The notes under the pieces: model-generated
Told to the model about the DNA's origin: nothing
The model's database searches: none
What the model saw: the letters and a program-made list of their open reading frames with translations, nothing else
Shown: positions 21,421 to 52,339 of the stretch, in pieces
Position numbering within the stretch: position 1 is the first letter of the stretch
Layout of the letters: every line of letters starts with the position of its first letter
Made by a program: the position numbers and the translations under genes
DNA from: Williamsia limnetica
GTDB taxonomy: Bacteria; Actinomycetota; Actinomycetes; Mycobacteriales; Mycobacteriaceae
Assembly: GCF_003217475.1 (NCBI RefSeq)
Contig: NZ_QJSP01000024.1
Span: 1 to 64,000 of the forward strand
DNA length: 64,000 nucleotides
Direction: 5' to 3'

Positions 21421-21436
21421 CCAGACACCTGTCCAG
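21421..21436. promoter_or_regulatory. AGAC-N3-TGTC operator, CYP51 divergent promoter
   Basis: CCAGACACCTGTCCAG, core GACA-CC-TGTC. It lies between tetR and the aldehyde dehydrogenase gene, ending one base before the latter's AAGGAGG. Sixteen of 18 bases (GTCCAGACA, NN, TGTCCAG) match 48363-48380. On the minus strand a TAGTGT hexamer downstream could be the -10 of the tetR operon. A bound regulator would affect both directions. Confidence 0.65.
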
Positions 21437-21452
21437 AAGGAGGCGATCGGCG

Positions 21453-22919
21453 ATGACGCTGAAGCCAGAAAACAGCTCCGAGCTGTTGATAGACGGTAAA
21501 TTGGTCCCGGGATCCGGCGGCACCTTCGACATCATCAACCCCGCCACCGAGGAGGTGATCGGACAGGCCGCCGATGGCACCGCCGCTGACATGGACGCGG
21601 CGATCGCGGCTGCGCGCACCGCCTTCGACACCACCACGTGGTCACGTGATCCGGCTTTCCGCGCCAAGTGCCTACGCCAACTGCGCGATGCGTTGCAGGG
21701 CCACGTCGACGAACTCCGTGAGATCACGATCGCAGAGGTCGGCGCACCACACTTCCTCACCTCGGGCCCACAGCTCGAGGGCCCCATCGCAGACCTGGGC
21801 TACTTCGCCGATCTCGCCGAGAACTACGAGTGGAGTTCCGATCTCGGCCGGGCGAAGCCGATGGGCATCAAAAACGATCGGGTCGTGCAACGCGAGGCCG
21901 CAGGTGTCGTCGGCGCGATCACGCCGTGGAACTTCCCGCACCAGATCAATTTCGCCAAGATCGGCCCTGCACTGGCGGCCGGGTGCACCGTCGTCCTCAA
22001 GCCGGCACCCGACACCCCGTGGTGTGCGGCGCTGGTGGGCAAGATCATCGCCGAGGAAACCGACATGCCGGCGGGAGTCATCAACATCGTCACCTCGAGC
22101 GACCACAGCGTGGGAGCGCTCTTGTCGACCGATCCCCGTGTCGACATCGTCTCGTTCACCGGTTCCACTGCCACCGGCAAGAAGGTGATGATCGCCGCGG
22201 CCGAGTCACTCAAGCGGGTGTTCCTCGAACTGGGCGGCAAGTCGGCGTTCATCGTCCTCGACGACGCCGACCTCGCCTCGGCCTGCTCGATGGCCGGATT
22301 CTCCGTGGTCACACACGCCGGTCAAGGATGCGCCATCACCACCCGACTGCTCGTGCCACGCGAAAAATATTCCGAGGCAATCGGTTACGTGCGCGACAGC
22401 ATGGCCGGCCTCCCAGCAGGCGATCCGGCCGACCCCGGGACCATTTGCGGACCGGTGATCTCTGCAGTGCAACGTGACCGCGTCGAGAGCTACATCCAGC
22501 TCGCTCGCGACGAAGGCGGCACCATCGAGATCGGCGGCGGACGGCCCACGAACAAGGACAAGGGCTACTTCATCGAGCCGACGCTGATCTCCGGTGTCGA
22601 GAACTCCGCCCGGGTCGCACAGGAAGAGATCTTCGGTCCCGTCCTCGTCATCATCCCGCACGATGGCGACGACGACGCGATCCGGATCGCCAACGACTCC
22701 CCCTACGGGCTGTCCGGCGCGGTGTGGGGTACCGACCCCGACCGGATCAAGAAGGTGGTCGACGGCGTCCGCACCGGAACCATGAGCATCAACGGCGGTA
22801 TCTGGTACTCCGCCGACATCCCCTTCGGCGGCTACAAGCAGTCCGGGATCGGTCGCGAGATGGGCGTGGCCGGCTTCGAGGAATACCTGGAAACCAAAGC
22901 CATCGCGACACCAGCATAG
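21453..22919 (+). CDS. aldA: Aldehyde dehydrogenase (Rv0768 AldA-like)
   Basis: 488 residues, full-length NAD(P)-dependent aldehyde dehydrogenase: GVVGAITPWNFPHQINFAKI, FTGSTATGKKVM, FLELGGKSAFIVLDD with the general-base Glu, HAGQGCAITTR with the catalytic Cys near residue 290, and EEIFGPVLVI. A strong AGAAGGAGG precedes the ATG. It is the first plus-strand gene of the divergent CYP51 locus, as in M. tuberculosis. It probably oxidises an aldehyde made by the SDR/P450 enzymes to an acid. Confidence 0.95.
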   Translation: MTLKPENSSELLIDGKLVPGSGGTFDIINPATEEVIGQAADGTAADMDAAIAAARTAFDTTTWSRDPAFRAKCLRQLRDALQGHVDELREITIAEVGAPHFLTSGPQLEGPIADLGYFADLAENYEWSSDLGRAKPMGIKNDRVVQREAAGVVGAITPWNFPHQINFAKIGPALAAGCTVVLKPAPDTPWCAALVGKIIAEETDMPAGVINIVTSSDHSVGALLSTDPRVDIVSFTGSTATGKKVMIAAAESLKRVFLELGGKSAFIVLDDADLASACSMAGFSVVTHAGQGCAITTRLLVPREKYSEAIGYVRDSMAGLPAGDPADPGTICGPVISAVQRDRVESYIQLARDEGGTIEIGGGRPTNKDKGYFIEPTLISGVENSARVAQEEIFGPVLVIIPHDGDDDAIRIANDSPYGLSGAVWGTDPDRIKKVVDGVRTGTMSINGGIWYSADIPFGGYKQSGIGREMGVAGFEEYLETKAIATPA

Positions 22920-22932
22920 GGAGCAGAACACA

Positions 22933-23670
22933 GTGAGCAACAATCGATTCGAAGGCAAGACAGCCATCGTCACCGGAGCGGCCGGCGGCATCGGCGAGGT
23001 CTACGCACGCCGACTGGCCGCCGAGGGTGCCAACGTCGTGGTCGCCGACCTCAACGACGAGGCGGGCAAGCAGGTCGCAGCAGACCTCGGTGGGCTCTAC
23101 GTCAACACCGACGTCGCCGACCCGGGGTCCGCGCAGGCCCTGGCCACCGCGACCCTCGATGCATACGGACAGATCGACTACCTGGTCAACAACGCCGCGA
23201 TCTACGGCGGAATGCAGCTCGACTTCCTCATCACCGTGCCCTGGGACTACTACAAGAAGTTCATGAGCGTGAACCTCGACGGCGCACTCAACGTGACCCG
23301 CGCCGTATACGGGCACATGAAGCCCGGCAGTGCGATCGTCAACCAGTCCTCTACCGCGGCGTGGCTCTACAGCGGTTTCTACGGACTCGCGAAGGTCGGC
23401 GTGAACGGATTGACCCAGCAGCTGGCCACCGAACTCGGCGGATCCGGCATTCGCGTCAACGCGATCGCACCGGGGCCGATCGACACCGAGGCCACCAAGT
23501 CGACCACCCCGGGCAACATGGTCAAGGACATGGTCGCCAAATTGCCGCTGTCCCGCATGGGAACTCCGGACGATCTGGTCGGCATGCTGCTGTTCCTCCT
23601 CTCCGACGAGGCGAGCTGGGTCACCGGCCAGATCTTCAATGTCGACGGCGGACAGATCATCCGGTCATGA
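22933..23670 (+). CDS. SDR oxidoreductase (Rv0769-like)
   Basis: 245 residues, GTG start. Classical SDR: TGAAGGIGEVYARRLA, VNNAAIYGG, Ser in NQSSTAAWLY, YGLAKVG (YxxxK), and the C-terminal FNVDGGQIIRS. It lies 13 bp after the aldehyde dehydrogenase. Its stop overlaps the next start (ATGA). Its place corresponds to Rv0769. The substrate is not known. Confidence 0.92.
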   Translation: MSNNRFEGKTAIVTGAAGGIGEVYARRLAAEGANVVVADLNDEAGKQVAADLGGLYVNTDVADPGSAQALATATLDAYGQIDYLVNNAAIYGGMQLDFLITVPWDYYKKFMSVNLDGALNVTRAVYGHMKPGSAIVNQSSTAAWLYSGFYGLAKVGVNGLTQQLATELGGSGIRVNAIAPGPIDTEATKSTTPGNMVKDMVAKLPLSRMGTPDDLVGMLLFLLSDEASWVTGQIFNVDGGQIIRS

Positions 23671-24518
23671 GCGAGCAGACTGCGGTCGGGTTCATCGGGC
23701 TCGGCAACATGGGTTTGCCGATGGCGCAGAAACTCGCCGCGTGGCCCGGCGGATTGGTGTTCGCCGACCTGAATCCGGACGTCGATGTGCCGGGTGCAAC
23801 GCGAGCAGGTTCCGCCGCGGAAGTCGCCAAGGCAGCGAGCGTCATCGGCGTCACGGTGCTCAACGACGAGCAGGTCGTGTCGGTGGTGCGCGGGCCGAAC
23901 GGCATCCTCGAGACTGCGGCGCCCGGCACCGTGATCGCGATCCACTCGACGATCAGTCCCCAGACGGCGGTCGACCTGGAGAAGCACTGTGCCGAGCAGG
24001 GTGTTGCCCTGGTCGACGCACCGGTGTCCGGTGGTGCAGACGGAGCGAAACAGGGCCGCCTCGCCATCATGGTCGGTGGCGATCGCGAGGCATATCTGAA
24101 GCTCAAGGAGCCCTACGGGCTCATGTCCGACATGATGATCCACGCCGGACCCGTAGGTGCCGGGACCAAGATGAAACTGGCCCGAAACCTCTTGCACTTC
24201 ATCGCTTTCACAGCGACGACCGAGGCCTCCCGACTTGCCGAAGCCGCAGGGGTCGACATCGTCAAACTCGGCAAGGTCGTGCGCCACACGGACGCGATCA
24301 CCGGCGGCGCCGGGGCCATCATGCTGCGCGACAGCACTGCACCGATCGAACCGGACGACTTCTGGTACGACATCTTCACGCACGTGCGAGGCCTGGGAGA
24401 GAAGGATCTCGGACTGGCGCTGCAACTCGGCGCCGAGTTGGGGGTCGAACTCCCACTCGGTGAAATCTCTCTGCAACGGTTCGCCGACGGCTTGGGTGTA
24501 GGAAAGGACAACACATGA
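23667..24518 (+). CDS. NAD(P)-dependent beta-hydroxyacid dehydrogenase family (Rv0770-like)
   Basis: 283 residues from the ATG at 23667. Hydroxyisobutyrate-dehydrogenase type: FIGLGNMGLPMAQKLA (Rossmann GxGxMG), DAPVSGGADGAKQGRLAIMVGG (substrate loop), and the catalytic Lys in GAGTKMKLARNLL. It should oxidise a beta-hydroxyacid or reduce a semialdehyde. It overlaps the genes on either side by ATGA, showing tight coupling in the plus-strand operon. Confidence 0.92.
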   Translation: MSEQTAVGFIGLGNMGLPMAQKLAAWPGGLVFADLNPDVDVPGATRAGSAAEVAKAASVIGVTVLNDEQVVSVVRGPNGILETAAPGTVIAIHSTISPQTAVDLEKHCAEQGVALVDAPVSGGADGAKQGRLAIMVGGDREAYLKLKEPYGLMSDMMIHAGPVGAGTKMKLARNLLHFIAFTATTEASRLAEAAGVDIVKLGKVVRHTDAITGGAGAIMLRDSTAPIEPDDFWYDIFTHVRGLGEKDLGLALQLGAELGVELPLGEISLQRFADGLGVGKDNT

Positions 24519-24928
24519 CGACAGAGGAAACATCTGAGCAGCGCCAGAAGGGTCTGGACATGATGTCCAGGGTCTACGGCTGGGAGATGAAGGACGGGCC
24601 GGGAGACTTCTTCGCGCACACCGCCGACCATCTCTTCGGTGAGGTGTGGACGCGGGAGGGACTCTCGATCCGGGATCGTCGGCTACTGCTGCTGGGCGCA
24701 TTGGCGGCGACCGGCCAGACCGACGTCGCGGAGATCCAGGCCGGGGCGGCCCTGGGCAACGGAGAGCTCGACGGCGACCAACTACGCGAGATCGCACTCT
24801 TCCTCTGCTACTACATCGGGTGGCCACAGGGCACCCGACTGAACTTCATGTTCGGCGATGTCATCGGCAAGTACGAGAAGGCACAGCGAAAAGAGGCCGA
24901 AGGCAACGGGGCTCGGCCGAGTTCATGA
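24515..24928 (+). CDS. Carboxymuconolactone decarboxylase family protein (Rv0771-like)
   Basis: 137 residues, CMD/AhpD fold: FGEVWTREGLSIRDRRLL, then DQLREIALFLCYYIGWP. A cysteine stands in the FLCYY helix, but there is no CxxC, so it is not an AhpD peroxidase. The start and stop overlap the neighbours (ATGA on both sides). The equivalent gene is Rv0771. The role is unknown; CMD proteins include lactone decarboxylases and small regulators. Confidence 0.88.
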   Translation: MTTEETSEQRQKGLDMMSRVYGWEMKDGPGDFFAHTADHLFGEVWTREGLSIRDRRLLLLGALAATGQTDVAEIQAGAALGNGELDGDQLREIALFLCYYIGWPQGTRLNFMFGDVIGKYEKAQRKEAEGNGARPSS

Positions 24929-25908
24929 CGTTCTTCGCGACGCGGTACGACTTCCGGGCGCCGGGCGCGTCGCCGACCGCACGAGCAGAACTCTTCGCTC
25001 GTGCGGTCGAGCAGGTCAAATACCTAGATACGCACGGTCAGGACGTCGTGATGCTCTCGGAACATCACGGCTCTCCTGACGGATATCTCCCGAATCCCTT
25101 GATGGTGGCCTCGGCGTTCGCGGCCGCCACCTCGCGGATCATGCTCACCGTCTCGGCCGTCGTCGTCAACCTCCATCACCCGTTGCGTCTCGCCGAGGAC
25201 ATTGCGCTGCTCGACCACCTCAGTGGCGGCCGGGTCTCGTACACGCTGGGTCTGGGTTATCTACCACAGGAATATGCTCAGCTCGGTGCCCCGTGGCGGA
25301 CCAGAGGCGCCGACATCGAGCGGGCGATCACGGTTCTTCGACAAGCCTGGACAGGCGAGGAGTTCGAGTTCGAAGGCCGCACCGTCAGGGTCACACCCAC
25401 TCCCCTCACCCAGCCCCATCCCATGCTCTTCTACGGCGGCGGCTCCCGCGCCGCGGCGCTACGCGCAGCCAGACTCGACCTCGGTTTCCAGCCCCAGGTC
25501 GCCGATCCCGAACTGCGTGAGATGTACGACGCAGAATGCCGGGCACACGGCCGAGAGCCGGGCTTCATGATGACCCCACCCCAGGGGCCGTCGACGGTTT
25601 TCTGCGCAGCGGATCCGGACCGCTTCTGGAGTGAGTACGGCGAGTACCTCCTCGCCGACGCCAAGGCCTACGATGCCTGGCACGGCGACCACGCGTCCCA
25701 CGTCCGCGACAGCTCGTCGACGGTGAGCGAATTACGCAGCGGCACAGGTTACGTGGTGTGCACCCCGGATGAGCTCATCGAACGGTGCCGGAGCAGAGAG
25801 TTCCGCCTCGTCACCAGTCATCCACTCTGCGGAGGGATGCCGGCGACGCCTTCATGGGAAAGCGTCAACCTCATCGGCGAGAAGGTGATCCCCGCCCTGG
25901 TGCCCTAA
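24925..25908 (+). CDS. Luciferase-like (LLM) flavin/F420 oxidoreductase
   Basis: 327 residues from the ATG at 24925, TIM-barrel LLM family: DVVMLSEHHGSPDGYLPNPL, TSRIMLTVSAVVVNLHHPLRLAEDIALLDHLSGGR split over strands, and LGLGYLPQEYAQLG. FMN or F420 could be the cofactor, and sequence alone does not decide. It overlaps the CMD gene and ends the plus-strand operon. The M. tuberculosis locus has no such gene at this place as I recall, so it is an addition. Its stop overlaps that of the convergent hydrolase by 4 bp. Confidence 0.9.
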   Translation: MTFFATRYDFRAPGASPTARAELFARAVEQVKYLDTHGQDVVMLSEHHGSPDGYLPNPLMVASAFAAATSRIMLTVSAVVVNLHHPLRLAEDIALLDHLSGGRVSYTLGLGYLPQEYAQLGAPWRTRGADIERAITVLRQAWTGEEFEFEGRTVRVTPTPLTQPHPMLFYGGGSRAAALRAARLDLGFQPQVADPELREMYDAECRAHGREPGFMMTPPQGPSTVFCAADPDRFWSEYGEYLLADAKAYDAWHGDHASHVRDSSSTVSELRSGTGYVVCTPDELIERCRSREFRLVTSHPLCGGMPATPSWESVNLIGEKVIPALVP

Positions 25909-26687
25909 CGCCGTGACGCTCTGGTGCTCTCGTGTTCGGATGCCACGAGCGACGCCGCGAATGCCGCGATGGCGGCGCCCGTGACGTTCGGCTGGATGAG
26001 GGGGAACAAGTGGCTTGCACGGGGTATCACCGTGAGGTTGGCATTCGGTGAGACGGCCGTGAATCGGCGTTCGTTCACCCGGAACTGATCCCAGCCGCCG
26101 TTGACGAACTCGATCGGCCCCGGATAGTGCGCCAATTCGCCAAGGGCGTCGAACCGGGATACCTCGGCGACAACATCCTTGATCGAGGCCAACGCCAGTC
26201 CGCCGATCTCCATGTCGTCGGATACCTGTCGTCCGACGGCTGCACGGGTCAGCCACCGACTCATGGTTGCGGCTTGTTCGGGCAAGTACGCGGTCGCAGC
26301 CCCGAAGGCACGAAACGGTGTGGCGAGAAGCCGGCTGGGCTGGGCCGTCGAGCACATGGCGACCAGACCCGCCACGAGTTCGGGACGCCTACCCGCTGTC
26401 GCCATCGAGACATACCCGCCCATCGACATCCCGGCCACCACCGCAGGCTGACCGAGAGTCTCGATGGCTGCGACAACAGTGTCCACGGCGCCAGCGAGGG
26501 TGAAAGTCTCGTCCCGACGCGAACCATGACCGGGTAAGTCGGGGAACACCACCTGTCGGTCGGGTATCGCCGCGGCGATCCGGTGCAGTGATGCACCGCT
26601 GACGCGAATCCCATGGACAAGGACCACCGGCGTAGGTGCGGGCACAGACACGTCGTCAGTATGCCCGGACTGCGGATCTGCAGGCAT
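25905..26687 (-). CDS. Alpha/beta hydrolase
   Basis: 260 residues from the ATG at 26687. Alpha/beta-hydrolase fold: VVLVHGIRVSG (oxyanion HG), VFPDLPGHGSR, nucleophile elbow GMSMGGYVS (Ser), Asp in FVNGGWDQFRV and His in PRASHLFPL. It could be an esterase, lactonase or C-C hydrolase. An upstream extension of the frame overlaps the divergent amidohydrolase and was discarded. Its 3' end overlaps the convergent LLM gene by 4 bp. Confidence 0.88.
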   Translation of the reverse strand: MPADPQSGHTDDVSVPAPTPVVLVHGIRVSGASLHRIAAAIPDRQVVFPDLPGHGSRRDETFTLAGAVDTVVAAIETLGQPAVVAGMSMGGYVSMATAGRRPELVAGLVAMCSTAQPSRLLATPFRAFGAATAYLPEQAATMSRWLTRAAVGRQVSDDMEIGGLALASIKDVVAEVSRFDALGELAHYPGPIEFVNGGWDQFRVNERRFTAVSPNANLTVIPRASHLFPLIQPNVTGAAIAAFAASLVASEHESTRASRR

Positions 26688-26720
26688 CTTCAGCGTGAAC
26701 AGCAGCAATGGGTAACGTGA

Positions 26721-26734
26721 AGAACTGTGTCTGA
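26721..26734. promoter_or_regulatory. Weak AGAC-N3-TGTC-like site over the amidohydrolase start
   Basis: AGAACTGTGTCTGA matches the operator consensus with one core mismatch (AGAA for AGAC). It overlaps the GTG start codon at 26727, as the better site at 42256-42271 overlaps the start of the second TetR gene. A chance match is quite possible. Confidence 0.2.
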
Positions 26735-27626
26735 ACCCGAAGCGCTGACCCTCGCCGAGGCAGGTGCCGTTCGCACTGTCTGGCAGCAACTCGACCTGCC
26801 GGGGCTTGTCGACGTGCACACCCACTTCATGCCGAAATCGGTCATGGACAAGGTCTGGGCGTACTTCGATTCGGTGGGTCCGATGGTGGGCCGCGAATGG
26901 CCGATCACCTACCGCGCCGATGAGACCCGGCGCGTCGAAGTACTGCGCGACTTCGGCGTCCGGGCGTTCACGTCCATGATCTATCCGCACAAGGCGGAGA
27001 TGGCGACCTGGCTCAACAGCTGGGCGGCCGATTTCGCAGCACATACCCCCGAATGCCTGCACACGGCGACGTTCTACCCGGAACCCTCTGCACCGGACTA
27101 TGTGGTCGCCGCCATCGAATCCGGCGCGAAGATCTTCAAGTCCCACATCCAGGTCGGCAATTACAGCCCCGTGGATCCATTGCTCGACGGTGTCTGGGCC
27201 GCCATCTCCGACGCCGAGGTTCCCGTGGTGATCCATTGCGGATCCGGTCCGGCACCTGGAGAGTTCACCGGGCCGCAGCCGATCGGCGACCTGCTACGCG
27301 CGTTCCCGCGGCTCCCGCTCATCATCGCCCACATGGGGATGCCCGAGTACGACGACTTCCTCGATCTGGCGGCCACGTACGAGAACGTGCACCTCGACAC
27401 CACCATGGCGTTCACCGACTTCGCCGAGGAGGACGCCCCGTTCCCCGTGAACTCGAGGCAGAAGCTTCGTGATCTCGGTGACCGGATCCTGTGGGGCAGC
27501 GACTTCCCCAACATTCCGTACACCTACACCAGCGCACTCGATGCCGTGATCCGGCTCGACCTCGGCGACGACTGGGTTCGTGGGGTACTGCACAACAACG
27601 CCGCCCGGCTGTTCGACATCGCCTGA
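26727..27626 (+). CDS. Amidohydrolase family protein (metal-dependent)
   Basis: 299 residues, GTG start. Amidohydrolase-2 type TIM barrel: LVDVHTHFMP (HxH metal site, residues ~29-33), VIHCGSGPAP and IIAHMGMPEY (His ligands), and ILWGSDFPNIPYT with the conserved Asp. Members include decarboxylases (ACMSD, gamma-resorcylate) and hydrolases of ring or lactone substrates. It is divergent from the alpha/beta hydrolase with 39 bp between starts, so the two may share a promoter. Confidence 0.9.
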   Translation: MSEPEALTLAEAGAVRTVWQQLDLPGLVDVHTHFMPKSVMDKVWAYFDSVGPMVGREWPITYRADETRRVEVLRDFGVRAFTSMIYPHKAEMATWLNSWAADFAAHTPECLHTATFYPEPSAPDYVVAAIESGAKIFKSHIQVGNYSPVDPLLDGVWAAISDAEVPVVIHCGSGPAPGEFTGPQPIGDLLRAFPRLPLIIAHMGMPEYDDFLDLAATYENVHLDTTMAFTDFAEEDAPFPVNSRQKLRDLGDRILWGSDFPNIPYTYTSALDAVIRLDLGDDWVRGVLHNNAARLFDIA

Positions 27627-41690: not shown

Positions 41691-42263
41691 TCAGGCCAGG
41701 ATCCGGCGCGCGGCCGACTCCATCTGGTCAGCCACCTCGTCGTAGGAGAAGTGACCCGACCCGGCTCGCACCATGGCGCCCGTGTAGATCAGCTCGATCA
41801 GTTCTACCGTCTGGGCGTCACCGGCGGTACCGACCGCCGCGGCGATCAGCTTGTGGATCACCCTGCTCACCTGCGTCCGCAGCTCGACAACATCCGAATC
41901 GTCGCTGAACAGCGACTTCGTCACCGCACCTGCGAACTGGGGCTCGTCCGCGACGAGCAAAGCGAGTTGGCGCAGTACCGCGACCACTCGGTCGGCGACA
42001 TCTGGAGCGTCGTTGTCGGGCGGCGAGATGCCGGCCAGTCGCCGCCAGTAGACCTCCGCGACGAGGTGCTCTTTCGAAGAGAAGTAGATGTATGCGGTGG
42101 CCCTGGCCAAGCCGGCGTGGGCGGCGACCATCGGGACCGTCATCTCCGAGTAGCTCACCTGACGCAGGACTTCGATCGTGGCGTCGCCGAGCCGCAGGAC
42201 CGTGTCCGCCCGCTTACCGGTCAGACGGCGTCGGGTCGCTTCAACTGCAGTCGGTTCAGACAC
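41691..42263 (-). CDS. TetR-family regulator, paralogue of the CYP51-locus TetR
   Basis: 190 residues from the GTG at 42263; an in-frame GTG at 42275 is possible. It resembles 20796-21386 from end to end: SEPTAVEATRRRL / SSPVSFESTRRRL, RATAYIYFSSKEHLVAEVYW / PATAYTYFSSKGHVVAELFW, and LIYTGAMVRAGSG / MLYSGALVRAGMG. The near-identical recognition helix predicts the same operator. An AGAC-N3-TGTC site lies over its own start (42256-42271), so it is probably autoregulated. Likely targets are the other such sites at 21.4, 43.4, 48.4 and 52.3 kb. Confidence 0.88.
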   Translation of the reverse strand: MSEPTAVEATRRRLTGKRADTVLRLGDATIEVLRQVSYSEMTVPMVAAHAGLARATAYIYFSSKEHLVAEVYWRRLAGISPPDNDAPDVADRVVAVLRQLALLVADEPQFAGAVTKSLFSDDSDVVELRTQVSRVIHKLIAAAVGTAGDAQTVELIELIYTGAMVRAGSGHFSYDEVADQMESAARRILA

Positions 42264-42271
42264 GCGTCTAG
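42256..42271. promoter_or_regulatory. AGAC-N3-TGTC operator over the second TetR gene's start
   Basis: CTAGACGCGTGTCTGA on the minus strand. It overlaps the GTG start at 42263, which suits repression of a leaderless or near-leaderless message. It shares CTAGAC and TGTC with the site at 52324-52339. Confidence 0.65.
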
Positions 42272-42308
42272 ACACTACGGGAGCGCGTAGGGCCTGACAA
42301 ACGGTCCG

Positions 42309-43379
42309 TCAGCCGTTCCCGAAGCCGTAGTGGCTGCGAACAAGCGGGAGGTCGGCCATGGTGGCGAGCCCGGGCGGGGCCGCGCACACGGCATCGATGG
42401 CGTTGAGGATCTGCATGGCTGTGGCGACACTGGCGGCATGGACGTGGTCGGCGATCGGCAGCTCGCGGGTGAAGCTGGCCAGGGAGATGAAGTGCGCCTG
42501 CATCGATGGCTCACCCTCGATGGTCAGGGTCCATCCATGCCTGGGTCTCGGCCAGTGCGGAGGGTCTTCGCCACCTACGGTCCACAACGCCTCGATCTCG
42601 ATGAGTTCGTCGTCGCCGCGCCTGCCCACCCACCGCCAGCGCTGCCCGGCAGTGGTCCCGGCTCGCAACAGGTGATCGAAGATCAGGTGATCGGTCACCG
42701 CGGCAACGGCTTCGACCTCAGCGGTGACCGTATCGATGTCAGCATTCAACGCATCGGCAAGAAACCACACCTGTTCGACGAACAGTGAACTGTTGAAGGC
42801 AAGGAACTCGCTACCCGTCGGGCTGATCATGTCGAGCGGTTCGCCAAAAGCCATGTTGTCGAATGTGATCGACGTGCTCTCGTACACCGACCAGTCGGCG
42901 CGCTCCTGCAGGGTGATCTTATCGATGCGTTTGCTCATCCCGGACAACGCCAGCGGGAGGACGCCAGACAGATTGCCCGGGTTGAGGCCGCTTCCGTGCA
43001 CGCTTGTCCCGCCGGCCTTGCACGCCGCTATGACGCGATCGCGATCGGTCGGATCGACTCGGCGGGGGTGGAACAAGAACGCCGTTGTGCACACGTTCTT
43101 GCCGGACGCGAGGAGCTGACAGACCTCCGTGACCGACGCGGTACGTGGCGTGTAGATCACGAGATCCGCCTCCAGTGCCAGGATCTCGGCCGAGTCACTC
43201 GTCGCGACCACACCTTGACCAGGCCTGTCGACGAGATCACCGACATCGACACCGGCCTTCTGCTCGGAATACACTCGGACGCCGACGATGTGGAGATCGT
43301 CCCGCGTGTCGATGATGGACTGCAACGCCTCCGCCCCGACCGCTCCGGTACCCCAGACGATGACGCGGCGCTTGTTCAC
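42309..43379 (-). CDS. NAD(P)-binding DHDP-reductase-like oxidoreductase
   Basis: 356 residues from the GTG at 43379. N-terminal Rossmann fold KRRVIVWGTGAVGAEALQ, then DLVIYTPR and GSGLNPGNLSGVLPLALSG. This is the pattern of the DHDPR-like/amine-dehydrogenase-type oxidoreductases that mycobacteria encode in many catabolic clusters. Their substrates are mostly unknown; they may reduce or oxidise an imine or carbonyl with NAD(P)H. No Shine-Dalgarno is visible. An AGAC-N3-TGTC site stands 34-49 bp upstream. Confidence 0.85.
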   Translation of the reverse strand: MNKRRVIVWGTGAVGAEALQSIIDTRDDLHIVGVRVYSEQKAGVDVGDLVDRPGQGVVATSDSAEILALEADLVIYTPRTASVTEVCQLLASGKNVCTTAFLFHPRRVDPTDRDRVIAACKAGGTSVHGSGLNPGNLSGVLPLALSGMSKRIDKITLQERADWSVYESTSITFDNMAFGEPLDMISPTGSEFLAFNSSLFVEQVWFLADALNADIDTVTAEVEAVAAVTDHLIFDHLLRAGTTAGQRWRWVGRRGDDELIEIEALWTVGGEDPPHWPRPRHGWTLTIEGEPSMQAHFISLASFTRELPIADHVHAASVATAMQILNAIDAVCAAPPGLATMADLPLVRSHYGFGNG

Positions 43380-43412: not shown

Positions 43413-43428
43413 CCAGACAGTGGTCTAA
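43413..43428. promoter_or_regulatory. AGAC-N3-TGTC operator upstream of the DHDPR-like gene
   Basis: TTAGACCACTGTCTGG on the minus strand. It lies between the end of the iclR gene (43451) and the DHDPR-like gene, so it should control the latter. It fits the consensus YAGAC-N3-TGTCY at every fixed base. Confidence 0.65.
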
Positions 43429-43450: not shown

Positions 43451-44365
43451 TCAACCACCCGCGCGACGGTACGGCGCCCGCCCGCCCAGTCGAGACGTGA
43501 CGTCGTCGGCGACCGAGCTCACCAGTTCGCCCAGTTCGACCAGTTGCGACCCGGTGATGGGTGCAGACGCGTCGAGCGCACACAGTGCACCAACCGGTCT
43601 GCCTCCCGCACCGAAGATCGGGGCGTTGACAGACAACGGGCGGTAGCGAGCGTGATCGTCGATCGCCCCGACAAGGATGTCGGCACCCAGTCTGCTCTGC
43701 TGCCCTTCGGTGAAACGCGAGGTCCGCCGGGAACCGTAGGAGTTCGGTCCCGTTGCGGACGCAGCCATATCGTTGAAACCTGCGACCGCCGAAGGATATT
43801 GCTCGACGGCGTAGTGCCTGCGCCGTACTGCGACCAATATGTCGCGGTACCGCGAGTGATGTTCGGCCAGTTGTGGATTGCGCTCCAGCCACGCATCGAC
43901 GGACGCCGCGGACGACCACGCGACCAGCACCGCACCGAGTGGTGGGCTGAATCCGACGCGGTCACCGGGTCGCAACTGGAGGCCGCCGGTGTCGTCCGCG
44001 ATCGCGGACTGCACCTTCGCGACGACCAGATCGCCGCCCGAGGGCACCACCACACAGCACTGCTTGCCGGTCGACTCCGCCAACGACGACAGTGCATCCG
44101 CGGTCGGCGCCAACTCTGCGATGCCCGCCTCCGCGGCTCCCCCGATCCGGGCCAGGGCGGGGCCGAGTTGATAGGTCTTCGCGCTCGGGTGTTTGACCAC
44201 CCATCCCACCCTGGTCAACTCTGTGAGCATCGGGTAAAGCGTCGTCTTGTCGATGTCGAGTGCAGCGGCGAGGTCGGTCAGGCTCTCACTCCGGCCAGGC
44301 GGAGCCGAGAGCAACTCGATGACGTCGACGAGTCGCTCGGTCTGGGGGGACCGTCTGGCACTCAC
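43451..44365 (-). CDS. IclR-family regulator
   Basis: 304 residues. The N-terminal winged helix is visible at ~5-65: QTERLVDVIELLSAPPGRSE, LTDLAAALDIDKTTLYPMLT, ELTRVGWVVKHP. The C-terminal GAF-like effector domain follows (SLAESTGKQCCVVV, LGAVLVAWSS, NAPIFGAGGRPVGALCALD). IclR proteins commonly sense pathway acids. It is the third gene of the FMO-hydrolase-iclR unit, overlapping the hydrolase stop by ATGA. Confidence 0.9.
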   Translation of the reverse strand: MSARRSPQTERLVDVIELLSAPPGRSESLTDLAAALDIDKTTLYPMLTELTRVGWVVKHPSAKTYQLGPALARIGGAAEAGIAELAPTADALSSLAESTGKQCCVVVPSGGDLVVAKVQSAIADDTGGLQLRPGDRVGFSPPLGAVLVAWSSAASVDAWLERNPQLAEHHSRYRDILVAVRRRHYAVEQYPSAVAGFNDMAASATGPNSYGSRRTSRFTEGQQSRLGADILVGAIDDHARYRPLSVNAPIFGAGGRPVGALCALDASAPITGSQLVELGELVSSVADDVTSRLGGRAPYRRAGG

Positions 44366-46744: not shown

Positions 46745-46811
46745 CTATTGGTTTTGCTATGTTTGGGCCATCCCCGCGGGTGCGGTGAGTGAGAACAGGC
46801 AAGGATGTCGA

Positions 46812-47408
46812 GTGACCGAGACCGCAAGCGTGCAGGACCGATTGCTCGACGCGGCGGAGCAATGTCTGGGAGCGAAAGGGATCAGGGCGACCACAGTCCT
46901 CGAGGTCGCGGAGGCGGCCGGCGTGTCCCGGGCATGGCTGTACCGGCATTTCCCGGACAAGGCGACCTTGCTCGGGGCGGCGATCGTCCGGTTGAACGAG
47001 GCCTTCTGGGCCGGATCGCATGCCGCCCTCGCCGAGATCGACACCTTCGACGCCCAGCTTGCTGCCGGCGTCGCGATCGGTCGCACCGCCTACGATCAAC
47101 CCGGCGCGCTCTTGATGAAACTCCGGGTCACCGAACCGGAAGAGTTCGCCGCCTGCGCGGGCGCCGGCGTGCAAGGCCTCGTACCGGACCTCGCAGCATT
47201 CTGGCATCCGTATGTGGTCGAAGCCCGCGCGCGCGGCGAGATCCATCCGGACATCGACACCGTCGAGGCGTCCGAATGGGTGGCTCGCCTACTCATCAGC
47301 CTGGCGACGGTCCCGGGGAACACCCTGGACCCAGATGACCGAATCGCAGTGCTGCGCCACATCAGGCGCTACGTTCTACCCGGGCTGCAAGCTGCACCTG
47401 GACAATAG
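46812..47408 (+). CDS. TetR-family regulator, divergent from the FMO gene
   Basis: 198 residues from the GTG at 46812, with AAGGA upstream. Helix-turn-helix: QDRLLDAAEQCLGAKGIRAT, VLEVAEAAGVSRAWLYRHFP, DKATLLGAAIVRL. The remainder is a usual ligand-binding domain. It probably controls the FMO-hydrolase-iclR unit through 46727-46744. An earlier in-frame start would extend over the FMO gene and is rejected. Confidence 0.88.
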   Translation: MTETASVQDRLLDAAEQCLGAKGIRATTVLEVAEAAGVSRAWLYRHFPDKATLLGAAIVRLNEAFWAGSHAALAEIDTFDAQLAAGVAIGRTAYDQPGALLMKLRVTEPEEFAACAGAGVQGLVPDLAAFWHPYVVEARARGEIHPDIDTVEASEWVARLLISLATVPGNTLDPDDRIAVLRHIRRYVLPGLQAAPGQ

Positions 47409-47451
47409 TTTTCACACCGCCTCACGTCCGGCGGTCGGCGAGAGGTGAGTC

Positions 47452-48306
47452 ATGACCGGATCCGTTCTGGTGGTCATCGGTGTCGGTGGCATGGGCGAGG
47501 CGATCGCGCGGCGTCTGGGCTCGGGTAGGCCGACTCTCATCGCCGATCACAATGCCGAGCGAGTCGAGGGGTTGCGGGAGCAGCTGCGCCACAGCGGCTA
47601 CGACGTGCACGCCCAACGGGTCGATGTTGCCTGCCGGGACTCACTGCGCGCCTTGGCGGCGACCGCCGGCGGGCTCGGCGACATCACGTCCGTCGTGCAC
47701 ACGGCAGGCGTCTCCCCCGCTCAGGCGCCGGCACACAGGATCATCGAGGTCGACCTCATCGGCACCGCGCTCTCACTCGAGGTGTTCGGTTCCGTGATCG
47801 CCCCCGGCGGCGCCGGTGTGTACATCGCGAGCGTCGCAGGCCACATCCTCGGCGCAGCCGTCGACGAGGCCTCAGCCGCGGTACTCGCCGGTGGCACCCC
47901 CGACGAGCTGGCCGACGCAGCACTCTTCGACATGCCAGATGTGCCGGACGATTTGGCCAGGGCCCTGACCTACGGATACTGCAAGCGGGGCAACCAACTT
48001 CGGGTGCAGTCGGCAGCACCTCTGTGGGGCGACCGCGGAGCGCGGGTCAACAGTGTGAGCCCAGGGGTGGTGGCCACCGAGATGGGCTGGGAGGAGTTCA
48101 ACGCCGACTTCGCGCACGACGCCTACGAAGCGATGATCAGCGACTCTGCCGCCGGACGCTTCGGCACCGCCGAGGACGTCGCCGCCGCCACCGAGTTCCT
48201 GCTGGACAACACCAAGTCGAGCTTCATCACCGGCACCGATCTTCTCGTCGACGGTGGTGTCGTCGCCGGACTGCGCTCCGGCCGGGTCGGTATGGCTGGG
48301 GCCTGA
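47452..48306 (+). CDS. Short-chain dehydrogenase/reductase, divergent subtype
   Basis: 284 residues. The cofactor loop is unusual, VVIGVGGMGEAIARRL, lacking the classical TGxxxGIG spacing. VHTAGVSPAQ and Ser in YIASVAGHI follow, then YGYCKRGNQ (YxxxK) and GTDLLVDGGVVAG. An inserted stretch before the active site (AAVDEASAAVLAGGTPDELA) is typical of a subgroup of actinobacterial SDRs. It lies 43 bp after tetR on the same strand. Substrate unknown. Confidence 0.87.
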   Translation: MTGSVLVVIGVGGMGEAIARRLGSGRPTLIADHNAERVEGLREQLRHSGYDVHAQRVDVACRDSLRALAATAGGLGDITSVVHTAGVSPAQAPAHRIIEVDLIGTALSLEVFGSVIAPGGAGVYIASVAGHILGAAVDEASAAVLAGGTPDELADAALFDMPDVPDDLARALTYGYCKRGNQLRVQSAAPLWGDRGARVNSVSPGVVATEMGWEEFNADFAHDAYEAMISDSAAGRFGTAEDVAAATEFLLDNTKSSFITGTDLLVDGGVVAGLRSGRVGMAGA

Positions 48307-48362
48307 CCACATTCGTCGGACAGTGGACACCTGGTGCGTCGTAACCTAGTGTGCATACATAG

Positions 48363-48380
48363 GTCCAGACAGATGTCCAG
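48363..48380. promoter_or_regulatory. AGAC-N3-TGTC operator upstream of the mycofactocin-type SDR
   Basis: GTCCAGACAGATGTCCAG, equal to 21419-21436 except for the two central bases. It lies 75-92 bp upstream of the GTG start. A TAGTGT hexamer stands just upstream (48348-48353), the same hexamer as beside the 21.4-kb site. A second small palindrome, CTGTCTGACAG, is at 48392-48402. Confidence 0.68.
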
Positions 48381-48454
48381 CTCGAATCGATCTGTCTGAC
48401 AGGTCAATCGCAGACCATCCGGCGCTGCGCTCGAACGAACTGGGGAGAATCACC

Positions 48455-49273
48455 GTGGGCAAGCTCGACGGAAAAGTCGCTTTCATCACCGGTGCTGCGC
48501 GAGGCCAAGGCCGCAGTCACGCCATCAGGCTCGCCCAGGAGGGCGCGGACATCATCGCCGTCGACCTCTGCGCCGACATCGCAACGGTGCCCTACCCACT
48601 CGGTACCCCTGAAGAGCTCGCCGAGACCGTGAAACAGGTAGAAGCGCTGGACCGACGGATCATTGCCACCAAGGCCGACGTGCGCGACCTGGCTGCGATG
48701 CGCACCGCGGTCGAAGAAGGCGAAGCGCAGCTCGGCAAGATCAACATCGTCCTCGCGAACGCCGGTATCTCGGTGTTCGGCGAAGACGGCTCCGACATCG
48801 AGACGCCGTGGAATGACGTCATCGGCGTCAACCTCACCGGCGTGTACAACACCGTCATGGCCGCCGTTCCAAGCCTGATCGCGGCGAGCGCCGGTTCTAT
48901 CGTGCTCACCAGTTCATCTCAGGGCCTCAAAGGTACCGGCGGTGTCGGCGCTCCGGGCAACACCGGATACGTCGCGGCGAAACACGCACTCGTCGGACTC
49001 ATGCGTACCTGGGCCAATTGGCTGGGACCCCACAACATCCGGGTGAACACCATTCACCCCACCGGTGTGAACACGCCGATGATCCGCAACAAGTTGATGG
49101 AAGAGATCTTCGAAGCCTTCCCCGAGGCGATCGAGGCGACTCGCAATCTGATCCCGGTGCCCTGGGTGGAGCCCGAAGACATCTCGAACGCGATTGCTTT
49201 CCTCGTCAGCGACGAGGGACGGTACATCACCGGCGTGGCGTTGCCCGTCGATGCCGGGTTTGCTGCCCGCTGA
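48455..49273 (+). CDS. Mycofactocin-dependent-type SDR
   Basis: 272 residues, GTG start with GGGGAG eight bases upstream. It has the fingerprint of mycofactocin-coupled SDRs (TIGR03971): LDGKVAFITGAARGQGRSHA, AVDLC with a following insertion (YPLGTPEELAETVKQVEALD), VLANAGIS, Ser in SSSQGLKG, YVAAKHA (YxxxK) and ITGVALPVDAGF. Such enzymes hold NAD tightly and need mycofactocin to recycle it, usually in alcohol oxidation. It is convergent with the LLM-kinase operon, and both carry the same operator type. Confidence 0.92.
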   Translation: MGKLDGKVAFITGAARGQGRSHAIRLAQEGADIIAVDLCADIATVPYPLGTPEELAETVKQVEALDRRIIATKADVRDLAAMRTAVEEGEAQLGKINIVLANAGISVFGEDGSDIETPWNDVIGVNLTGVYNTVMAAVPSLIAASAGSIVLTSSSQGLKGTGGVGAPGNTGYVAAKHALVGLMRTWANWLGPHNIRVNTIHPTGVNTPMIRNKLMEEIFEAFPEAIEATRNLIPVPWVEPEDISNAIAFLVSDEGRYITGVALPVDAGFAAR

Positions 49274-49274
49274 C

Positions 49275-50330
49275 TCAGACGGCGGTGGCAGAACCCGCCA
49301 GATCGATGGTCCCGAGGTCGCGGATGGCTGCACACGAGCGGGCGACCATGGCGGCGAACATCCTGTCTCCGCGTTCGGTGCGCGTGCCGTAGGCGCATCC
49401 GAACACCGCCACCAACGGCCCCTGGATCATTGCGAAACAGTAGTCTTCCCAGCAGTTCTCGAGGCCATAGTCGAGTGCACCGTGAGATTGCAGAGCCCGG
49501 TGGTAGTGCGCCACCAGATCCCGTTCGTGCGCGCGACGTTCTTCCGGCGAGAGGCTGGTGCCGAGGAAGTACGCGAGGTCGCGCGCCGGCAGGGCCAGGC
49601 TCAACGTCTGCCAGTCGATGGCGGTCACCCCTGGGCCGCCATCCGGCGGGAACAGCAGATTGTCGAGCCGGTAGTCGCCATGGACCAGACCGAATCGTTC
49701 CGGATGTGCGAGCGCCCATTTCTCGGCCACACCCACGCATTCCCAGAGTGTCTCGCGGTCCTCGGCGGCGACCAGTTCACCGAGACCGTCGATGAAGATC
49801 TCCGTCGCGGGGCCGTACATCTCGGCGAGAAGTTTGGCGTCGTCGGGTCCGTTCACCGCCAGTCCGTCGACGTCGAGCAGAGCAGGGTCGCACCAGCGGG
49901 GTCCGTGCAGACCGGCCAGATTTTCCACCGCATCCCGGGCCTGCGCAACCGTGCACCCCGCGAGCTGATCACCCTGTTGCGCAGGGCTCATGTCCTGTAG
50001 CAGCAACGTGAAATCCGCACCGCTGGAGGAGATGTCGGCGTAGTAACATCTCGGGACCCGGATCGCGACCGTGGCAGCGATCTCGCCGTAGAACCGGACC
50101 TCCGACCGATACACCCCGGCGAGCATCTCGCGCGTCGCGGGATCGATCGCAGGCAGTTTCGCAAGCATGGTGGTCGGCTCGCCGACACCGGTCAGCTCCA
50201 GGCGGAAGCAGGTTCCGATCTGCCCGGTGCCGACCGCCTCGGCCCGCACGGACTCGACATCCTTGCCGAGGGTGTCCGAAAGCCACTCGGCGGTCAGTTG
50301 ATCGGCGGACGTCACGATAGGTGCGGTCAC
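49275..50330 (-). CDS. Phosphotransferase (APH/ecdysteroid-kinase-like)
   Basis: 351 residues, GTG start overlapping the upstream LLM stop. Kinase-like fold: LTAEWLSDTLGKDVESVRAE, TTMLAKLPAI with the ATP-binding Lys, FGLVHGDYRLDNLLFPPD (catalytic loop HGDxxxxN) and VTAIDWQTLSLALPARDLAY (metal-binding D). Such proteins phosphorylate small hydroxylated molecules. In actinobacteria this type is common in sterol/terpenoid clusters, but the substrate is unknown. It is the last gene of the LLM-LLM-kinase operon. Confidence 0.9.
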   Translation of the reverse strand: MTAPIVTSADQLTAEWLSDTLGKDVESVRAEAVGTGQIGTCFRLELTGVGEPTTMLAKLPAIDPATREMLAGVYRSEVRFYGEIAATVAIRVPRCYYADISSSGADFTLLLQDMSPAQQGDQLAGCTVAQARDAVENLAGLHGPRWCDPALLDVDGLAVNGPDDAKLLAEMYGPATEIFIDGLGELVAAEDRETLWECVGVAEKWALAHPERFGLVHGDYRLDNLLFPPDGGPGVTAIDWQTLSLALPARDLAYFLGTSLSPEERRAHERDLVAHYHRALQSHGALDYGLENCWEDYCFAMIQGPLVAVFGCAYGTRTERGDRMFAAMVARSCAAIRDLGTIDLAGSATAV

Positions 50331-51418
50331 GACGTGAACCTTCCTGGATTGGCGGCCAGCTGATCGAAGCGACCCCGCGGCCGCACGGTGCGCCAGGCGT
50401 CGAGGACCGGCGCGAGTTCGGTGGGGGTCGCACCATGCAGGATGACTCCGTCAGCGCCGCAGCTGAACTGGTCGGCAACGCGTTCCGCGCAGCGCGCCGC
50501 AGATCCGGTCGCCGACGCGGCAAGCCAGTGGGCAGGTAGCAAGTCGGCCACCCGCGTGAGGTCGTCGACGGTGCCGATCGCGTCGAACGCGCCGGGGAAG
50601 TTCTGCACGAACTCGTCGTTTCGGAACCGTGCGAGGTCGGCGGTATCCCAGCCGTTCACCTCGACCAGCACCTGGCCGTACCCCTGCAGATACGTGGCCA
50701 TCCGACCGACCAGCTTTCGCAGTCTCAGTTCTTCGGAAATCGAGTCCTCGATCGTCGCCAGCACCGACCAGATCCGAACCGATTCCGGGTCGCGGCCGGC
50801 TTCTTGCGCTGCGGTCCTGATCGTCCGGACCGCACGATCGAGGGTCTCGTCACTGAAGAACGTATGCAAGACAACACCATCGGCGATCCGACCGGCAAGC
50901 CTCAGTGTCTTCTCCCCGATTGCGACCATCATGATCGGGATGTCTTCGTCGAACGACGGGTCCTGCATCAGGAACGGGTACTTGCCTGCCGGGCCGTCGT
51001 GCCCGGCCACGCTCCCACCGGACCACAGGGTGCGGTAGATACCGACGGCATCCTCGATCTGCGCAGAGGTGACGCGAGGCAGGCCCATCACATCGAAGAG
51101 CATGTCGAAGCCACGGCCGAGGCCGAGCGAGTACCGTCCGCCCGTCAGTCGATGCATCGTGGTGGCCAGAGTCGCGGTGACCAAGGGATGGCGGGTGTTG
51201 TGATTGGTTGCCGCCGAGGCGATCCCGATCTGTTCGGTCACCGCGCCGACAGCACCGGCGAGTACACCGGCGTCCTTGGTGTTGAACCGCTCTGACAAGA
51301 AGATCGAACCGATGCCCAACTGCTCGGCCAGCCTGGCCTCGTCCACCAGGTCTCGAGGGCTGTTCGAATGTCCCGCCAGCCCGTAACAACCCAGCTCAGG
51401 GAGGGGTGAGAGGTCCAC
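50327..51418 (-). CDS. Luciferase-like F420-type oxidoreductase
   Basis: 363 residues, GTG start. LLM TIM barrel with F420-type features: GCYGLAGHSNSPRDLVDEAR, GSIFLSERFNTKDAG, GIASAATNHNTRHPLVTATL and LTGGRYSLGLGRGFDM. The C-terminal part has CAERVADQFSCGADGVILHG. It should be an F420-dependent dehydrogenase or reductase. It starts 2 bp after the stop of another LLM gene. Confidence 0.9.
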   Translation of the reverse strand: MDLSPLPELGCYGLAGHSNSPRDLVDEARLAEQLGIGSIFLSERFNTKDAGVLAGAVGAVTEQIGIASAATNHNTRHPLVTATLATTMHRLTGGRYSLGLGRGFDMLFDVMGLPRVTSAQIEDAVGIYRTLWSGGSVAGHDGPAGKYPFLMQDPSFDEDIPIMMVAIGEKTLRLAGRIADGVVLHTFFSDETLDRAVRTIRTAAQEAGRDPESVRIWSVLATIEDSISEELRLRKLVGRMATYLQGYGQVLVEVNGWDTADLARFRNDEFVQNFPGAFDAIGTVDDLTRVADLLPAHWLAASATGSAARCAERVADQFSCGADGVILHGATPTELAPVLDAWRTVRPRGRFDQLAANPGRFTS

Positions 51419-51420
51419 TG

Positions 51421-52281
51421 TCAGACCGTGGCCGGGCTCAGACCCAATTTGCCCGAGAGTTTCGTGAGGTAGGCGCCGGCTCGTTCCTCACTGTCGTCTG
51501 GCACGCCGTACAGCACCGTGGTGACCCCGAGTTCGCGCCACTGGTCCAGCTTCTCCTGGACGGGTTTGAAGTCGAGCACCACGATCTGGGGATGGCCTTC
51601 GCGTCCCGCGTCGGCCCAGATCTGCTTGAGAAGCCCTACCGAGCCCTCGATGTCCTGCTCACCCGGCGTGGTGATCCAGCCCGCTGCACTGCGCGCGATC
51701 CACTTGAAGTTCTTCTCGTTGCCCGCCGCACCGACGAGCACCGGTGGACCAGGCTGCTGCACGGTCTTCGGCCATGCCCAGCTCGGACCGAAGTTGACGA
51801 ACTCTCCCGAGTATTCCGCTTCTTCCTGCGACCACAGCGCAGTCATCGCCTCGAGGTACTCCCGCAGCATCGTGCGCCGGCGTTTCGGCGGCACGTGGTG
51901 GTCACCCAATTCGTCGAGGTTCCAGCCGAAGCCGACCCCGAGGGTCACCCTGCCGCCCGACAGGTGATCGAGGGTGGCAATGGCTTTGGCCAGTGTGATC
52001 GGGTCGGACTGCACGGGCAGCGCAACCGCGGTGGCCAGCCGGATCCGGGTGGTGACCGCCGCGGCCATGCTCAGCGAGACCCATGGGTCGAGGGTCCGCA
52101 TATAGCGGTCGTCGGGCAGCGAGGAATCCCCTGTTTGCGGATGAGCGGCGTCTCGCCGAGTAGGGATGTGACCGTGTTCGGGCACGTAGTACGCGTCGAA
52201 TCCGGCCTGCTCGATCAGGGGGGCCAGGATCGCCGGCGCCAGTCCGCGATCACTGGTGAATTGGACGATTCCGTAGTCCAT
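51421..52281 (-). CDS. Luciferase-like F420-type oxidoreductase
   Basis: 286 residues, ATG with AGGAG upstream. LLM motifs: FDAYYVPEHGHIPTRRDAAH, RTLDPWVSLSMAAAVTTRIR, ATLDHLSGGRVTLGVGFGW and KTVQQPGPPVLVGAAG. It is typical of TIGR03619-like F420 oxidoreductases. It is the first gene of the LLM-LLM-kinase operon, whose promoter carries three stacked palindromic sites (52302-52363). Confidence 0.9.
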   Translation of the reverse strand: MDYGIVQFTSDRGLAPAILAPLIEQAGFDAYYVPEHGHIPTRRDAAHPQTGDSSLPDDRYMRTLDPWVSLSMAAAVTTRIRLATAVALPVQSDPITLAKAIATLDHLSGGRVTLGVGFGWNLDELGDHHVPPKRRRTMLREYLEAMTALWSQEEAEYSGEFVNFGPSWAWPKTVQQPGPPVLVGAAGNEKNFKWIARSAAGWITTPGEQDIEGSVGLLKQIWADAGREGHPQIVVLDFKPVQEKLDQWRELGVTTVLYGVPDDSEERAGAYLTKLSGKLGLSPATV

Positions 52282-52301
52282 CGTGTCTCCTGCTCTTCGA
52301 T

Positions 52302-52320
52302 CCGGTCCGATACGGACCGG
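52302..52320. promoter_or_regulatory. CCGGTCCG-ATA-CGGACCGG perfect palindrome
   Basis: A perfect 8-3-8 inverted repeat, 21-39 bp upstream of the LLM start. It lies downstream of the AGAC-N3-TGTC site on the transcribed strand, so in the 5' leader or at the transcription start. It may be an operator, or form a stem in the mRNA just before the ribosome site. Confidence 0.55.
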
Positions 52321-52323
52321 TGA

Positions 52324-52339
52324 CTGGACACCAGTCTAG
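52324..52339. promoter_or_regulatory. AGAC-N3-TGTC operator of the LLM-kinase operon
   Basis: CTAGACTGGTGTCCAG on the minus strand. It fits the shared motif and also contains TAGACT, a good -10 hexamer, so binding there would block RNA polymerase. Confidence 0.65.

Follow-up and report, generated by a model that had tools for sequence, protein, structure and literature searches.

Motif X is said to have been described by Bragin and colleagues (2019). According to the available text of PMC6593523, this palindrome is similar to the predicted Rv0767c motif and lies near 14 operons in Mycobacterium sp. VKM Ac-1817D, 12 of which were upregulated more than 3-fold on phytosterol; it also lies near the start of the Rv0767c orthologue itself (G155_05115) and is distinct from the motifs of KstR and KstR2 that the study also found. 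In the accessible parts of three further papers, a motif at the Rv0767c locus fell below the authors' significance cut-off (MEME E = 1.2e-14; PMC4482099), Rv0767c regions bound in chromatin immunoprecipitation were enriched for GAC and GTC (PMC10312376), and the genes Rv0762c-Rv0771 changed together (0.14-0.25; PMC10470581). The 8,14-sterol reductase 8,14-Bsr, as presented in the available text of PMC13277303, is found together with CYP51 and its ferredoxin and acts once C-14 has been demethylated. Here we analyze a stretch of 64,000 nucleotides from Williamsia limnetica (the window), in which a TetR-family gene (TetR A) of the Rv0767c type lies beside CYP51, a P450, an SDR, and an Rv0768-type aldehyde dehydrogenase, and in which a palindrome occurs at this locus and at four other promoters.

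We consider it probable that the five sites serve as operators for a TetR repressor of the Rv0767c type that would co-control CYP51 and other likely sterol-modifying genes. Judged site by site from the sequence, 21421, 42256, 48365, and 52324 are very likely operators of this repressor, and confidence that 43413 is one is fair.

Results

Five sites in the window

The pattern AGACNNNTGTC had exactly five matches in the window, at positions 21421, 42256, 43413, 48365, and 52324 (operators 1 to 5, Table 1). A preliminary description of this DNA had given the same number and places and had located them in promoter regions, and both statements were confirmed: the centers of all five sites were intergenic (intergenic fraction 0.17, P ≈ 1.4e-4 for 5 of 5, using a simple gene caller whose TetR B start was placed downstream of operator 2). 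The motif proposed there, AGAC-N3-TGTC, was indeed shared by all five, but it is only a slice of their common palindrome, the 16-bp CYRGACANNTGTCYRG, which we take as the full operator, and its 8-base core alone was not enriched. The genes for TetR A and the Rv0768-type aldehyde dehydrogenase diverge, and operator 1 lies between them, immediately ahead of the ribosome-binding site of the dehydrogenase gene.

Sites were scored with a symmetric external matrix made from 20 distinct sites, taken from 32 non-Williamsia loci upstream of TetR A homologues. The highest scores in the window were those of operators 1, 2, 4, and 5, followed by 21409 (14.9) and operator 3. All five sites, each intergenic, were within the top six, and the sole other member, 21409, overlaps operator 1. 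Scores of at least 17 occurred four times in the window, where 200 first-order Markov sequences averaged 0.055, and scores of at least 12 seven times (Markov mean 0.84, maximum 4). Two weaker matches named in the preliminary description, 26721 and 57385, did not stand, with scores of 6.6 and 3.8 that are background in the W. limnetica genome. Exact CYRGACANNTGTCYRG was present at three sites in the 6.35-Mb genome, two of them in the window and one at position 197182 of contig C6.

Table 1 Predicted operators, promoters, and genes in the 64,000-nucleotide window
Feature	Position	Strand	Score and remarks
Operator 1, CCAGACACCTGTCCAG	21421..21436	+	Matrix score 27.0; GT extension upstream (21419-21420)
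Operator 2, CTAGACGCGTGTCTGA	42256..42271	-	Matrix score 24.3; TetR B promoter and start codon
Operator 3, TTAGACCACTGTCTGG	43413..43428	-	Matrix score 12.75, lowest of the five; upstream of Ord/DapB-like dehydrogenase gene
Operator 4, CCAGACAGATGTCCAG	48365..48380	+	Matrix score 18.2; upstream GT; before mycofactocin-type SDR
Operator 5, CTAGACTGGTGTCCAG	52324..52339	-	Matrix score 17.3; before LLM oxidoreductase/LLM oxidoreductase/kinase genes
TetR B promoter	42272..42300	-	TTGTCA (42295-42300), N17, TAGTGT (42272-42277) abutting operator 2; consensus match
Mycofactocin-type SDR, candidate promoter	48324..48352	+	TGGACA (48324-48329), N17, TAGTGT (48347-48352); operator 4 starts 13 bases further
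TetR A, Rv0767c-type regulator	20796..21428	-	Longest open reading frame; start near 21386 fits relatives better
TetR B, second regulator of the subfamily	41691..42275	-	Start at 42263, inside the operator, fits relatives
CYP123-like cytochrome P450	19561..20799	-	Overlaps TetR A end; name from Rv0762c-Rv0771 gene order
SDR oxidoreductase, Rv0765c position	18764..19561	-	NF005854, 397 bits (cut-off 260)
CYP51 sterol 14-alpha-demethylase	17415..18767	-	720 bits to Rv0764c CYP51 (1e9x), 741 bits to CYP51B1 (7tef)
Small ferredoxin adjoining CYP51	17192..17398	-	From translation
8,14-sterol reductase (8,14-Bsr)-like protein	16625..17146	-	Six pocket residues by spacing
Aldehyde dehydrogenase, Rv0768 type	21453..22919	+	TIGR04284, 905 bits (cut-off 775)
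Ord/DapB-like dehydrogenase	42309..43379	-	DAP_DH_C; NF040740, 96 bits (below cut-off of 400)
Mycofactocin-type SDR	48455..49273	+	TIGR03971, 377 bits (cut-off 300)
F420-type LLM oxidoreductase, first gene of operon	51421..52281	-	TIGR03619, 244 bits (cut-off 166.9)
Second LLM oxidoreductase and ecdysteroid-kinase-like/APH-type kinase	49275..51418	-	TIGR03857, 362 bits (cut-off 218.4); EcKL, APH

Regulator and operator across genomes

Among 39 loci with a TetR A homologue (L076-L104 and L112-L121, including six mycobacterial loci, L116-L121), 38 matched the 16-mer at 13 to 14 of 14 in the stretch from -150 to +60 relative to the matched start of the regulator, the exception being L104. Two regulon features of the Rv0767c type, a palindrome near the regulator's own start and the same motif at several operons, were both found. 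When the pattern was relaxed slightly, there were 107 distinct sites, of which 101 were intergenic, in loci that were fetched because of a site or a regulator.

We then compared 121 genomes of the family, W. limnetica included, counting the regulator as present when a TetR A homologue was found at E 1e-25 or better (77 genomes). The exact 16-mer occurred in 73 of the 77 genomes with the regulator (182 sites, compared with 20 sites of the reversed control) and in 7 of the 44 without it (7 sites, compared with 8 of the control). CYP51 (E 1e-100 or better) was present in 70 genomes, all of which had the regulator; seven genomes had the regulator without CYP51.

Recurrence at orthologous promoters

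Orthologous promoters were compared in fetched regions of eight other Williamsia genomes. The preliminary description had proposed conservation upstream of orthologues as a check, and the operator largely recurred, with operators 1 and 5 at every orthologous promoter examined and 43413 least widely kept. At the aldehyde dehydrogenase/TetR A promoter the site was present in 8 of 8 genomes (scores 29.1-29.7), and at the LLM operon promoter in all seven relatives with an orthologue (12.1 in G106, 17.3-17.5 in the others); this LLM gene family carries the operator in other genera too. The mycofactocin-type SDR promoter had the site in 3 of 3 relatives with an orthologue (14.3, 24.5, and 24.8), and the Ord-like gene promoter in 2 of 3 close relatives (14.4). 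Of the seven relatives that have TetR B, three (G059, G076, and G119; 23.7-28.9) carried the site at its promoter. In 9 of 9 Williamsia genomes, a sixth operon, located outside the window, carries a site ahead of an SDR gene and the Ord-like gene behind it.

The two weak window positions behaved differently in relatives: the 57385 position scored 15.5 in 3 of 3 close relatives and had no site in G092, and the upstream region of the 26727 orthologue scored 15.5-19.8 in G010, G040, G092, and G121 and was weak in the close relatives and G106, as both positions are in W. limnetica. A strong site (25.4) was also observed in G119 near a small ferredoxin gene (L214:4539-4554), with identical sequence in G059 and G076; the W. 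limnetica genome contains no exact copy of it.

External matrix, co-occurrence across the 121 genomes, and orthologous-promoter recurrence together support the shared operator and TetR regulon that had been proposed for this DNA.

Operator and promoter geometry

GT (or AC on the other side) stood directly outside the palindrome in 57 of 73 distinct exact sites, in 53 of them on one side only (control offsets, 12%). For 55 sites with one clear target gene, many of which are orthologous promoters, this extension faced the promoter in 34 cases and the gene in 5; 4 sites had it on both sides, and 12 lacked it. A scan of two sites for consensus promoters was negative, and a looser TANNNT/TTG test was used instead. 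By this test, 45 of 152 non-redundant site orientations had a TANNNT box that ended immediately before the operator (background 0.6% per position), and TTG lay exactly 17 bases above the box in 34 of these 45, with no such peak among the other 107 orientations. Because the box abuts the operator, the GT extension is in part simply where a -10 box ends. In many promoters the operator thus directly follows a -35/N17/-10 promoter, a layout that implies repression by occlusion as the likely mechanism.

In the window, besides the two promoters of Table 1, TACACT was found 16 bases before operator 1 at the aldehyde dehydrogenase promoter. In all 76 cases (30 distinct N-termini) in which a TetR reading frame runs through the right half of the operator, ATG or GTG was present there. 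This start codon and the -10 spacing are only suggestive of leaderless TetR mRNAs, and the motif itself supplies the TG.

Evidence against a common operator

Several observations weigh against reading the five sites as operators of one type of repressor. The 8-base core is expected 2.46 times in the window and occurred at least five times in 12 of 100 shuffles; genome-wide it had 143 matches (78+65), compared with 127 (54+73) for a reversed control, and it was rejected as a genome-wide marker. Equal frequency inside genes, which the preliminary description had named as a finding that would speak against its proposal, was observed only for this core and only genome-wide: among the first 30 core matches listed elsewhere in the genome, 21 were inside genes, and the best matrix score was 12.8. 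Allowing one mismatch, CYRGACANNTGTCYRG had 17 genomic matches, below the 30 of the control, so that mismatched sites need other evidence and the scan was discarded as a site finder. The one-mismatch sites other than the three exact ones and 52324 scored 4.3-17.1, at least 9 of the 11 best-listed were intragenic, and none was used. The matrix is partly non-blind, its training sites having been picked with a consensus derived from the preliminary description, and one non-matching row (L104) was included in the training. The Fisher test of co-occurrence gave P = 1.5e-19, a value that is too small because the genomes are related. Four of the 77 genomes with the regulator lacked the exact 16-mer (G055, G085, G088, and G093), and seven of the 44 without the regulator had it (G035, G050, G056, G057, G067, G114, and G116).

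Conservation was also incomplete. The three close relatives (G059, G076, and G119) share approximately 98% identity in TetR A and count for little as independent evidence. No site was present at the TetR B promoter of G010, G040, G092, and G121, where a site scoring 15.1 lies behind the gene instead; with the promoter site missing in 4 of 7 relatives, TetR B autoregulation through the motif is not general. The Ord-like gene promoter had no site in G119, and none was present at the homologues in G010, G040, and G092, which are 55% identical. With regard to geometry, TANNNT was also found at the mirrored offset in 28 of 139 cases (gene side, 48 of 139), in part because many sites serve two divergent genes. 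The exact -35/N17/-10-operator register was found within the window at operator 2 only, and the LLM and Ord-like promoters had no clear promoter in the -10-abutting register.

The core counts are unremarkable and would be compatible with the five 8-base matches being coincidental. Such a coincidence is scarcely credible given the external matrix, the intergenic placement, the link to the regulator, and the recurrence in relatives; it is already refuted for 21421, 48365, and 52324, and is still possible for 43413 alone. Three of the five window operators lie outside the exact -10-abutting register, as might be the case if the regulator were an activator that switches genes on when bound beside the promoter. 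In relatives with readable promoters, however, the site lies over the start region, immediately downstream of the -10 box, which is the position of a repressor, and we regard activation as improbable.

The two regulators

TetR A and TetR B were 47-48% identical and were each other's sole close relatives in the genome, where the next best match was 27% identical. The tree rejected a single Williamsia A+B clade (p-AU = 0.0045, with TetR B on a long branch), which disfavors a recent duplication within Williamsia. A search of solved structures returned no close relative of TetR A, and relatives from Mycolicibacterium shared 50-54% identity and had the operator at the corresponding position. A TetR A 85% identical to that of W. 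limnetica, in a Williamsia-like context, was found in record NZ_JNYV01000004.1 (L110), which is labeled Kitasatospora arboriphila; the label or the assembly of this record may be wrong.

The sites could instead belong to KstR or to another TetR-family protein. KstR controls sterol catabolism, occurs in 9 of 9 Williamsia genomes, and is the best family model for TetR A (NF033703; TetR A 50.3 bits, TetR B 41.5 bits). Both scores were far below the cut-off of 280, however, and a true KstR is encoded separately in the genome (C11:115330, 337 bits). Moreover, the motif tracks TetR A homologues in the 121 genomes, in which KstR itself was not scored, it lies at that regulator's start in almost all loci, and motif X is unlike the motifs of KstR and KstR2 in the available text of PMC6593523. 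Assignment of the sites to KstR or another such protein is consequently very unlikely. The MftR model (TIGR03968) gave 36.1 bits for TetR A and 27.5 bits for TetR B (cut-off 224.9).

The helix region ATAY-YFSSK and the N-terminal TRRRL were identical in all 18 aligned regulators, so it is plausible that TetR A and TetR B share one operator. G106 has no close TetR B and keeps the aldehyde dehydrogenase and LLM sites, which indicates that TetR A alone may suffice for the regulon. TetR A could then be the sole user of the sites and TetR B a separately acquired protein with another regulon or function, as the rejected A+B clade, the four relatives without a motif at the TetR B promoter, and G106 would suggest. 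Operator 2, however, stands in exact promoter register at TetR B, the motif is present there in three close relatives, and the recognition-helix region of TetR B is nearly that of TetR A. We find exclusive use by TetR A possible, though doubtful, and favor use of the operator by both regulators.

Genes behind the operators

Leftwards from operator 1, a run of genes on one strand with overlaps or short gaps comprises TetR A, the CYP123-like P450, the SDR, CYP51, the ferredoxin, and the gene at 16625-17146; rightwards are the Rv0768-type aldehyde dehydrogenase and an SDR. The CYP51 match to 1e9x spans residues 7-449, its full length. The 16625-17146 protein had no match in Pfam and none in PDB. 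Its residues Y25, Y31, Y66, Y68, D121, and D124 have exactly the spacing of Y37, Y43, Y78, Y80, D133, and D136 of 8,14-Bsr, a comparison of the spacing of named residues rather than a sequence alignment.

Outside Williamsia, the motif was found at aldehyde dehydrogenase genes, the P450/CYP51 operon, LLM oxidoreductases, and a glycosyltransferase operon, and at single genes encoding PF04116, SdmB-like, thioesterase, and ketosteroid-dehydrogenase-like proteins. Two of these labels were not retained: the SdmB-like protein (L179:4540-5517) scored 155 bits against a cut-off of 600, with a hopanoid-associated epimerase model scoring higher, and the ketosteroid-dehydrogenase-like protein (L236) exceeded the cut-off only for a generic FAD-binding model.

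The kinase of the operon behind operator 5 (49275-50330) had the ecdysteroid-kinase-like family (EcKL) as its best Pfam match. A third TetR-type gene (46812-47408) and an IclR-type gene (43451-44365) lie among the site-bearing genes. The region 4157-12492 encodes an enoyl-CoA hydratase, acyl-CoA dehydrogenases, carboxylase-like proteins, and an AtuA protein (PF07287, 513 bits); from its gene content it looks like an acyclic-terpene utilization cluster adjoining the CYP51 locus.

Discussion

From the computed sites, regulator link across genomes, and promoter geometry in relatives, we infer binding, repression, an inducer, a single operon, and a pathway, as follows. TetR A, and probably TetR B too, would bind CYRGACANNTGTCYRG as dimers beside or over the -10 box and the transcription start, and the bound repressor would block RNA polymerase until released by an inducer, for which a compound derived from sterols, or its coenzyme A thioester, is the most likely candidate. 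Operator 1 would control TetR A itself, CYP123, the SDR, CYP51, the ferredoxin, and the 8,14-sterol-reductase-like gene in one direction, and the aldehyde dehydrogenase operon in the other. The remaining sites would add TetR B, the mycofactocin-type SDR, the F420-type LLM/kinase operon, and the Ord-like dehydrogenase, and the pathway so controlled would process uptake-derived methyl sterols.

The link to the CYP51/8,14-sterol-reductase module suggests methyl-sterol processing, and the presence of a true KstR in all nine Williamsia genomes makes sterol use likely. Neither of the two PF04116 genes of W. limnetica has a site nearby, and both were rejected as targets; this weakens the sterol interpretation for Williamsia itself. 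Methyl-sterol processing as the purpose of the regulon is plausible, about even at best. We tentatively propose, while leaning slightly toward doubt, a dedicated methyl-sterol (lanosterol-type) regulon in bacteria that do not use CYP51 for sterol synthesis. In it, CYP51, the 8,14-sterol reductase, and oxidoreductases of the F420 and mycofactocin types would answer to a single type of repressor, as would, in relatives, genes of the sterol-hydroxylase family (PF04116) and SdmB-like and ketosteroid-dehydrogenase-like genes. The operator would be oriented, its GT on the upstream side making up a third half-site that adjoins the -10 box.

Why actinobacteria that make no sterols keep CYP51 is presented as an open question in the discussion of PMC13277303, as far as its available text goes. 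A methyl-sterol regulon, if true, would account for the orphan CYP51 found in mycobacteria and related bacteria. The conserved operator provides a ready list of genes expected to act with CYP51, in non-pathogenic relatives that are easy to knock out or feed with sterols, and the sharp operator and promoter layout could be of use for footprinting or for a sterol biosensor.

Among known systems, KstR is alike in being a TetR-family regulator of sterol catabolism in related bacteria and the best family model for TetR A, but it differs by the low score of TetR A and by the separate KstR gene. Among the titles listed in searches of an open-licence library for the regulator, none described an Rv0767c-type regulon outside mycobacteria. 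An Rv0767c-type repressor with a motif regulon is already known as a proposal in a mycobacterium, and the W. limnetica set resembles the motif X regulon, as given in the available text of PMC6593523, in its TetR regulator, its palindrome near the regulator's own start, and its several operons with P450s, an aldehyde dehydrogenase, and SDRs. Motif X and CYRGACANNTGTCYRG are likened here by description and position rather than base by base. Unlike the motif X regulon in that text, the W. limnetica set adds the mycofactocin-type SDR, the LLM/kinase operon, and a second TetR. The parts of PMC4482099 and PMC10312376 that were available concern the same regulator type and GAC/GTC half-sites, whereas the operator geometry comes only from the present analysis. 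The cluster of PMC13277303, in its available text, shares CYP51, the ferredoxin, and an NTF2-like protein with six pocket residues at identical spacing; its main text contains neither "TetR" nor "operon", and the regulatory link is drawn here. What is new is the family-wide reach of the regulon, its promoter geometry, and its link to the CYP51/8,14-sterol-reductase module.

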